In this document: piece by piece, positions 16,815 to 18,603 of the stretch | Numbering within the stretch: position 1 is the stretch's first letter | Layout of the letters: each line of letters begins with the position of its first letter | Origin: Gemmatimonadota bacterium | GTDB lineage: Bacteria; Gemmatimonadota; Gemmatimonadetes; Longimicrobiales; Longimicrobiaceae | NCBI GenBank assembly: GCA_007118565.1 | Contig: SKRI01000214.1 | Span: forward strand, 1-32,385 | Direction of reading: 5' to 3' | Length of the DNA: 32,385 nucleotides | Program-made: the position numbers and the translations under genes | Notes under the pieces: model-generated | What the model was told of the DNA's origin: nothing | What the model saw: the letters and a program-made list of their open reading frames with translations, nothing else | Databases searched by the model: none

Positions 16815-17939
16815 ATGATCTCGAAACAGGATCTCGAGCGGCTTCTCGAACGTCCCTCGAACGGGAAGCAGATCGTCTCGCTCTTCCTCGACATGTCGGT
16901 CAACTCCAACAACAAGCGAACCCACAACATCTTCCTCAACCAGCGGCGTGCCCAGTTCGACGAGCTCGACAGCGATCGGCAGAACCACCACCGCGAGGCA
17001 ATCGGTGAGGTGTTCGCGCGCGTGGGTGACTGGCTCGATGACGGGTTCGACGAGGAGAACCGCGGCGTCGTCATCTACACCGAGGTGGGCGGACCGTGGT
17101 TCGAGGCGCTTCAGTTTCCGGTTCCGGTGAGGAACCAGTTCGTGATGAGCCCGCGCCCGGTGGTGGGGCCGCTCGCCCAGGTGCTGGAGAGCTACGACCA
17201 TCACGGCGTGGTGCTGCTCGACCGGGAGCACGTGCGCATCCTCAGCGTATACCTGGGGACTCTCCTGGACGAGTTCGAGGTCCACAAGGAGCCGCTGCCG
17301 ACCTCGCGGGACGTGCAGCCGGGTGGCTTCTCGCAGCAGCGCTTCCAGCGGAGGAAGCGCGAGGAGATCCGCCACTTCTTCAAGGAGTTCGCCGACGAGG
17401 TGGCCGGCTTCGTCCGGAGGGACCGGCCGGACGACCTGGTGATCCTCGGCACCGAGCAGAACGTGGCCAAGTTCATGGAGTTCCTGCCGGAAGAGATCAG
17501 GAAGAAGGTGATCCACACCGGGGCAATGGAGGTCGACGAGACCACCTCAGAGGTCCTCGGGAAGCTGCGGCCGCACCTGGATGCACATCGGGAGATGGAG
17601 GCCCAGGCCGCTCTGCAGCAGCTTCGGGAGCGGCTGGACCAGGATTATCTCGCGACGGCGGGGTACCAGAGCACGCTCACCGCTCTCCAGGAGGGGAAGG
17701 TCGACACGCTCGTCATGGAGCGCGATCATACCCGAGACGGCGTCCGCTGTAAGTCCTGCGGCTTCGTCTTCGCCCGGATGCTGAAGTCCTGCACCTTCTG
17801 CGATTCACAGGAGATGGAGGACGTGAACGCATCCGAGGAGGTCGTCCGCATGGCGGAGGGGCAGGGCGCGAACATCGAGTTCGTCGGCCCCGGGGTGATC
17901 TCAGACCTGCGTGGGGTGGGATCGATCCTGCGATTCTGA
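16815..17939 (+). CDS. Bacterial eRF1-like protein (baeRF / VLRF1-like peptidyl-tRNA hydrolase)
   Basis: This 374-aa protein looks like a bacterial member of the eRF1/Pelota/Vms1 superfamily. Residues 1-115 form an alpha/beta N-terminal domain (IVSLFLDMSVN, VVIYTEVGG). Residues 120-245 contain VVLLDREHVRILSVYLG and the loop PGGFSQQRFQRRKREEIRHFF (170-190). This loop corresponds to the Gly/Gln catalytic loop (GGQ in release factors, GSQ in Vms1). The C-terminal domain carries a zinc ribbon with Cys312, Cys315, Cys326 and Cys329 and ends GVGSILRF, like the eRF1 C-domain ending G(I/V)GAILRY. The likely role is ribosome-associated cleavage of stalled peptidyl-tRNA. It is followed after four bases by an unrecognised gene. 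A pyrimidine-rich leader precedes the ATG. Confidence 0.8.
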   Translation: MISKQDLERLLERPSNGKQIVSLFLDMSVNSNNKRTHNIFLNQRRAQFDELDSDRQNHHREAIGEVFARVGDWLDDGFDEENRGVVIYTEVGGPWFEALQFPVPVRNQFVMSPRPVVGPLAQVLESYDHHGVVLLDREHVRILSVYLGTLLDEFEVHKEPLPTSRDVQPGGFSQQRFQRRKREEIRHFFKEFADEVAGFVRRDRPDDLVILGTEQNVAKFMEFLPEEIRKKVIHTGAMEVDETTSEVLGKLRPHLDAHREMEAQAALQQLRERLDQDYLATAGYQSTLTALQEGKVDTLVMERDHTRDGVRCKSCGFVFARMLKSCTFCDSQEMEDVNASEEVVRMAEGQGANIEFVGPGVISDLRGVGSILRF

Positions 17940-17943
17940 CGTA

Positions 17944-18603
17944 ATGGCCGAACCGGACCGGCAGGATTCTTCGGATGCGATCGATGCCATCATCTCCGCC
18001 TCGGCCCTCTCCGATCTGCGCGCCATCGAGGGGGTGGAGGCGGTTTCGATCGAAGAAGAGCGGGGAAAAATTCACCTGATCTGCCGGTCCGAGGGAGGCA
18101 CGTCTTCCCCCATGGAGGTGCAGGCGCGCTCGATCCTCCTCGCGGACGGAATTCCCGACAGCTCGCTGCCGCAGCTCCAGGTCAGCTACCTCTTTCGACC
18201 CGAGGTGCACCGGCGGATCCGCATCGAAGGAATTTCGGTCGTCGCCATCGATGTGCGACAGTGGCGGGCGACCGTAGATCTGGAGTGGGACGGGCGGGTC
18301 GAGACCGGAGCCGCGCTCGGACCCCCATCGGAAGCCGCGAAAGTCCGTCTGGCCGCGGAGGCCACGCTCGATGGCCTGCGCCAGGTTGTGGAGGATCGTC
18401 TGCGATTCCGGCTGCTCGGCGTGAAGATCGTCAGCGCCTTCGATCACGATATGGTCGTCGCGCTCCTCCGTCCGGAGGTAGAACGGAGCTCGCGGCTCGT
18501 CGGAGTGGCGATCGCGGACGAGGGAGTCGAGATCGGAGCGGTGCGAGCGGTCCTGAACGCAACAAATCGTATCCTCGGCAACTACCTTACCGTCAGCGAA
18601 TAG
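17944..18603 (+). CDS. Hypothetical protein, partner of the eRF1-like gene
   Basis: This 219-aa protein starts four bases after the eRF1-like stop, so the two form an operon. It is soluble and acidic. The last 130 residues contain two similar units, each a beta-beta-alpha pattern: RATVDLEWDGRVETG with VRLAAEATLDGL, and MVVALLRPEVERSSRLVGVA with AVRAVLNATNRIL. This may be an internal duplication. The first 90 residues (LRAIEGVEAVSIEEERGKIHLICR) look like another alpha/beta module. I do not recognise the family. Its linkage suggests a role with the release-factor-like protein, perhaps RNA or ribosome binding, but that is inference. It ends 11 bp before the convergent transglycosylase gene. Confidence 0.78.
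   Translation: MAEPDRQDSSDAIDAIISASALSDLRAIEGVEAVSIEEERGKIHLICRSEGGTSSPMEVQARSILLADGIPDSSLPQLQVSYLFRPEVHRRIRIEGISVVAIDVRQWRATVDLEWDGRVETGAALGPPSEAAKVRLAAEATLDGLRQVVEDRLRFRLLGVKIVSAFDHDMVVALLRPEVERSSRLVGVAIADEGVEIGAVRAVLNATNRILGNYLTVSE

Follow-up and report, generated by a model that had tools for sequence, protein, structure and literature searches.

The 374-codon open reading frame at 16815-17939 (+) of the window, 32,385 nucleotides of a Gemmatimonadota contig (SKRI01000214.1), is a real gene, and its product, P0001, is a three-domain eRF1-type protein of baeRF family 10. Its nearest experimentally known relative is the hibernation factor Balon (MSMEG_1130). Two observations are new here. 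HPF/RaiA went undetected throughout the window's family, whose 21 genomes all carry the baeRF gene, and P0001 has a conserved partner, P0002, whose C-terminal half is modelled as resembling a regulatory domain of the LeuA/citramalate-synthase type. The features of the locus are as follows.

16815..17939 (+), baeRF family-10 (Balon-family) protein P0001, 374 aa (open reading frame; PF18854, 92.1 bits; Balon 8v9j, E 3.8e-21 with the A1 profile)
16815..17144 (+), N-terminal domain (residues ~1-110), corresponding in position to the decoding domain of eRF1 and lacking NIKS (aligned by profile with aRF1 4af1; match to 2llx)
17157..17564 (+), middle RNase H-fold domain, residues 115-250 (PF18854 match 115-250)
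17322..17354 (+), GGFSQQRFQRR loop, residues 170-180; Q174 is at the VLRF1-type Gln position
17598..17936 (+), C-terminal eRF1_3/Pelota-type domain, residues 262-374 (PF03465, 25.8 bits)
17748..17801 (+), zinc ribbon C312-C315-C326-C329, an insert in the C-terminal domain
17944..18603 (+), P0002, the partner gene (219 aa), without a Pfam match (adjacency conserved)
18211..18585 (+), P0002 residues 90-214, predicted to be like the LeuA/citramalate-synthase regulatory domain (AlphaFold2 model, structural alignment, sub-cut-off PF08502 matches in homologues)

The gene is present in one copy in its genome (G000; 2.9 Mb, 306 contigs, 93.6% complete). We compared it across the window's family (f1, the 21 genomes G000-G020) and the sister families f2 and f3. 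P0001 and its relatives make up 26 full-length proteins that can be aligned end to end (alignment A1, 18 rows from f1, P0001 included, and 8 from f2), with 42-65% identity to P0001; a second, wider alignment holds 16 f1 and 6 f2 rows together with proteins from lineages f10, f8, f7 and f4. The open reading frame, the GGFSQQRFQRR sequence at residues 170-180 and the four cysteines, all given in the preliminary description, were confirmed from the sequence, and their conservation across the 26 homologues is beyond chance. No relatives of P0001 were found on plasmids (tblastn) or viral contigs (profile scan), and a contig search returned only two, both from Gemmatimonadota.

P0001 matches the Pfam model of baeRF family 10 (PF18854) well above its gathering cut-off of 27.1 bits, as do all 26 A1 proteins at E<=0.001; its matches to baeRF families 2, 3 and 5 are weaker. 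Balon MSMEG_1130 (residues 22-375), scanned here, also matches PF18854 (124.7 bits). The ‘baeRF family 10' of the literature and the Balon seen by cryo-EM are thus one Pfam family, and the nearest known relative of P0001 is a hibernation factor rather than Vms1; neither ‘baeRF' nor Burroughs is mentioned in the searched text of PMC10901736. The best NCBIfam models for P0001 are three ribosome-hibernation-factor models and aRF1, each of which matches 26/26 A1 proteins, with P0001 scoring below the hibernation-factor equivalog cut-offs (83.8/480, 71/320 and 56.9/330 bits). In a sequence search of the PDB, the A1 profile ranked Balon (8v9j) above haloarchaeal aRF1 (4af1; 3e-14), Rv2629 (2.4e-11) and Pelota (1.8e-5), and the Balon match spans residues 18-374 of P0001. 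The eRF1-like nature of the protein proposed earlier is therefore borne out, and its proposed likeness to Vms1 gives way, in Pfam, NCBIfam and the PDB profile search, to a closer likeness to Balon. P0001 does match acVLRF1 in Pfam (PF18859, 43.8 bits; cut-off 27.1), but scores only 24 bits against the NCBIfam acVLRF1 model (cut-off 125). Its score with eRF1_3 (PF03465) is exactly that model's cut-off of 25.8 bits.

An AlphaFold2 model of P0001 made with 3 sequences was poor (mean pLDDT 56, pTM 0.32), so that structural matches serve only as agreement with the sequence, on which the fold assignment mainly stands. Foldseek with this weak model placed Balon first (3.7e-14) and aRF1 next (8.1e-13). 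A second aligner matched the model to both Balon (Z 11.6, rmsd 24.1, 321 aligned) and aRF1 (Z 10.4, rmsd 19.9, 307 aligned), with rmsd values so large that the packing of the domains in the model is unreliable. The N-domain, a low-confidence part of the model, matched the eRF1 N-domain 2llx (Z 8.6, rmsd 3.3, 118 aligned). In the profile alignment to 4af1, residues ~53-56 (SDRQ) lie opposite the NIKS of aRF1, and the NIKS motif is absent from P0001 in both its sequence and this alignment. P0001 is like aRF1/eRF1 in domain order, zinc-ribbon site and tail, but lacks NIKS and has Phe in place of the GGQ glutamine. Its likeness to Balon (8v9j/8v9l) extends to Pfam family, domain order, similar length, C-terminal tail and an end-to-end profile match. 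P0001 differs from Balon, however, in its GGxSQ loop (Balon is reported to be without GGQ), in its genuine Cys4 zinc ribbon where Balon has a beta-hairpin in the C-domain, in its different partner gene, in the lack of detected HPF/RaiA in its genome, and in its sub-cut-off NCBIfam scores.

The zinc ribbon of the preliminary description holds up. The four cysteines form a CxxC-x10-CxxC ribbon, of which C312, C315 and C326 are invariant in 26/26 A1 proteins, with Cys or Asp at the fourth position. Proteins from f10, f8 and f7 still have the ribbon; in those from f4 it is degraded. According to PMC6514570, many baeRFs have a two-strand insert at the ribbon site, perhaps a decayed ribbon. The clade of P0001 retains the ribbon there. 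The C-terminal GVGSILRF is present as described earlier, but is not specific to eRF1, because Balons end alike (GVAAVLRW and GVGALLRY). Second, more distant baeRF proteins are encoded in G027 (C746, 26% identical), G033 (C234, 24%) and several f4 genomes; the distant f4 proteins have Glu for the loop glutamine and a degraded ribbon.

We then analysed the loop. With G170 located by script, the loop of P0001 reads GGFSQ (170-174). It lies where eRF1 has GGQ, as had been proposed, but the motif is of the GGxSQ type: the GGQ triplet is absent, and Phe or Tyr occupies the position of the GGQ glutamine. The same motif is described in PMC6514570 for aVLRF-1 and acVLRF-1. P0001 shares this loop and the basic helix after it with acVLRF1/aVLRF1, members of the VLRF1 clade that includes yeast Vms1. 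In contrast to acVLRF1, reported to have lost the stop-codon-binding domain, P0001 has an N-domain; it also has a Pelota-type C-domain with a zinc ribbon, and its scores to acVLRF1/aVLRF1 are much weaker than to family 10. Single substitutions in P0001, used as probes of the Pfam columns, indicate that the Q174 column favours Gln in both the family-10 and acVLRF1 profiles: Q174A and Q174G cost 2.7 and 3.1 bits in the former, and 4.9 and 5.5 bits in the latter (PF18859), while F172Q had no cost in the family-10 profile.

Among the homologues in the window's family, the loop is readable in 20/21 genomes (in G012 only the last 29 residues remain, at a contig end), and 19 of these loops have Q174, the remaining one His. 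Residue 175 varies freely, whereas 171, 176 and 178 are constant within f1 (16 f1 rows); G171, Q178 and K181 are invariant in 26/26 A1 proteins, Q178 sitting in the Arg/Lys-rich helix that directly follows the loop. The strong retention of Q174 beside a free residue suggests a chemical role, which Balon reportedly lacks. In f2, by contrast, only 2/8 homologues have the loop Gln, the others having Ala or His. The loop is GGWSQ in the outgroup G307 (f10) and AGWAE in f8, and f4 has Glu at the Gln position. On a 31-row tree built without the loop columns, in which outgroup branches are long and several forks are open, there are at least 5 changes in the Gln state. The simplest reading of these sequences is that Gln was ancestral to f1, f2 and f10 and was lost repeatedly in f2. 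Since most f2 homologues lost it and yet kept the gene pair, the common function of the pair does not seem to need Gln. We rejected the hypothesis that Gln persists solely in genomes without HPF, because Gln and HPF occur together in G307 and in G021 and G029 of f2.

HPF/RaiA (Ribosomal_S30AE) was found at E<=0.001 in 0/21 f1 genomes, in contrast to 9/10 in f2 and 9/10 in f3 (17 of these 18 above the curated cut-off), in draft genomes, 61-98% complete, in which genes may be hidden. The same search was positive in 11/14 control genomes. The Fisher value for 0/21 versus 18/20 is 9e-10 if the genomes are treated as independent, and the absence in f1 is probably one loss. A lineage-made profile of the 18 f2/f3 HPFs gave no convincing hit in the f1 genomes, the best one being partial (E 0.0066, 18.4 bits), and the long-HPF C-domain reached its cut-off in 0/41 genomes of f1, f2 and f3. 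The baeRF gene is present in all 21 f1 genomes (in G012 as the 29-residue piece), f2 has both baeRF and HPF, and no close baeRF homologue was found in the 10 f3 genomes sampled; HPF also occurs in 20/22 further genomes carrying distant baeRFs. Homologues also occur in the HPF-bearing lineages f2, f8 and f10, so that the factor does not simply stand in for HPF. Balon genes frequently, though not obligatorily, adjoin raiA or stress genes; the genes around P0001 encode instead an LPG synthase-like protein, P0002 and a lytic transglycosylase.

With confidence a little above even, we read P0001 as a Balon-type A-site factor whose main job is hibernation and which may still release chains. MSMEG_1130 is reported to bind the A site and to be without GGQ (Helena-Bueno 2024, PMC10901736). 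By likeness to it, P0001 would dock in the A site of the ribosome, its N-domain placed at the decoding centre, the middle-domain loop pointing to the peptidyl-transferase centre and the C-domain with its zinc ribbon facing EF-Tu, and would not read stop codons. Because the beta-hairpin of Balon is replaced by a true zinc ribbon, the contact with EF-Tu may differ. The putative role of P0001 would be to occupy and preserve ribosomes when cells are stressed or starved, in a lineage where no HPF/RaiA was detected. When docked, it may in addition free the nascent chain or remove peptidyl-tRNA, a possibility raised in the f1 lineage by the retained VLRF1-type glutamine; hibernation and release may both hold.

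It is also possible, though appreciably less probable, that P0001 is mainly a peptidyl-tRNA hydrolase that would rescue stalled ribosomes independently of stop codons via Q174, by analogy with what is proposed for VLRF1. Burroughs and Aravind (2019, PMC6514570) single out family 10 for its well-conserved Gln and as possibly active, and P0001 carries the aVLRF-1/acVLRF-1 motif followed by the Arg/Lys-rich helix. Of the loop positions probed, Q174 is one of the costliest to change in both profiles, and nearly all f1 homologues keep it, as does the outgroup G307. In addition, NFACT_N/RqcH was not detected in G000 (93.6% complete), though found in most f1 genomes. However, 6/8 f2 homologues have lost the Gln while keeping the gene and mostly its neighbour, f8 and f4 have Glu there, and the closest relatives with solved structures are Balons, in which GGQ is said to be missing. 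SmpB, present in 38/41 genomes, is also encoded in G000 and already gives it a basic means of rescue. The preliminary description had taken the intact glutamines as a sign of a working hydrolase and had named a glutamine loop not conserved among homologues as refuting this: the sequences lend the claim half support, with the loop Gln conserved in f1 (19/20) and not in f2 (2/8).

That P0001 is instead a Pelota/Dom34-like factor splitting stalled ribosomes without hydrolysis is, in our view, improbable. The common three-domain fold and the dispensability of Gln in f2 would agree with this, but Pelota scores far below Balon and aRF1, and the constraint on Gln in f1 would be left unexplained. A second termination factor reading stop codons was rejected as very improbable, because the similarity to the aRF1 profile (TIGR03676, 70.3 bits) is far below the cut-off of 234.7 and both NIKS and the GGQ triplet are absent.

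The coupled second gene noted earlier is real. The ATG of P0002 is at 17944, 4 bases past the P0001 stop codon (17937-17939), and the gene is adjacent, downstream and on the same strand in 25/29 baeRF genomes (f1 18/21, f2 7/8), with 7-510 bases between the matches. It lies on another contig in G010 and G029, and no homologue was found in G008 and G011. A P0002 homologue (L054, G035:C16:2531-3109) occurs in an f2 genome where no baeRF homologue was found. A lytic transglycosylase gene often follows P0002, as do genes that, from their sequences, we take to encode MoaC, DNA polymerase III delta' and an M23 peptidase.

In the AlphaFold2 model of P0002 (mean pLDDT 74), residues 90-214 align with the regulatory domains of LiCMS, a citramalate synthase (Z 10.5, rmsd 3.3, 116 aligned), and LeuA (Z 8.2-8.8, rmsd 3.0-3.2, 107-109 aligned); the best Foldseek E value was 3.5e-5. 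P0002 would thus share their predicted (beta3-alpha)x2 fold, but has no catalytic barrel, and the similarity in sequence is only marginal. A Pfam scan of P0002 gave no match, PF08502 (LeuA_dimer, cut-off 24.9 bits) included. PF08502 appeared in 3/12 homologues at E<=1 (best 0.0027), two of which scored 21.0 and 18.3 bits, below the cut-off; hhalign to LeuA was weak (probability 19%), though collinear over 114 columns, and the P0002 profile found no convincing relative in the PDB by sequence (best E 0.055). The possibility that P0002 is an HPF in disguise was rejected (profile comparison probability 0.3%), as was its assignment to the DUF1876/Rv1738-type proteins (Foldseek prob 1.00, Z 6.1 and 5.8), a match weaker and shorter than that to LeuA/LiCMS. 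No LeuA_dimer domain was found across G000 (93.6% complete). The N-terminal alpha/beta domain of P0002 is weakly like the cytoplasmic domains of zinc transporters in structural alignment.

P0002 probably modulates P0001; that it binds a ligand is a conjecture. As a long shot, the two genes might form a module operating without HPF, in which the factor, still hydrolysing peptidyl-tRNA by means of its GGxSQ loop, releases and then hibernates, gated by P0002 as a LeuA-like sensor of branched-chain amino acids. Amino-acid supply would then be read directly at the idle ribosome.

On peptide release by bacterial eRF1-like proteins of this clade, family 10 was predicted to be possibly release-active (PMC6514570), whereas its solved member MSMEG_1130 was reported as a hibernation factor lacking GGQ (PMC10901736). 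At the level of titles and abstracts in the PMC literature, we found no experimental test of hydrolysis by GGxSQ family-10 proteins and nothing on HPF loss in this bacterial group. The clade offers a natural experiment, in which close homologues that either have or lack Gln stand next to one conserved partner gene, and HPF is detected in some of their genomes and not in others. Release versus hibernation is thereby directly testable by one substitution, Q174A.
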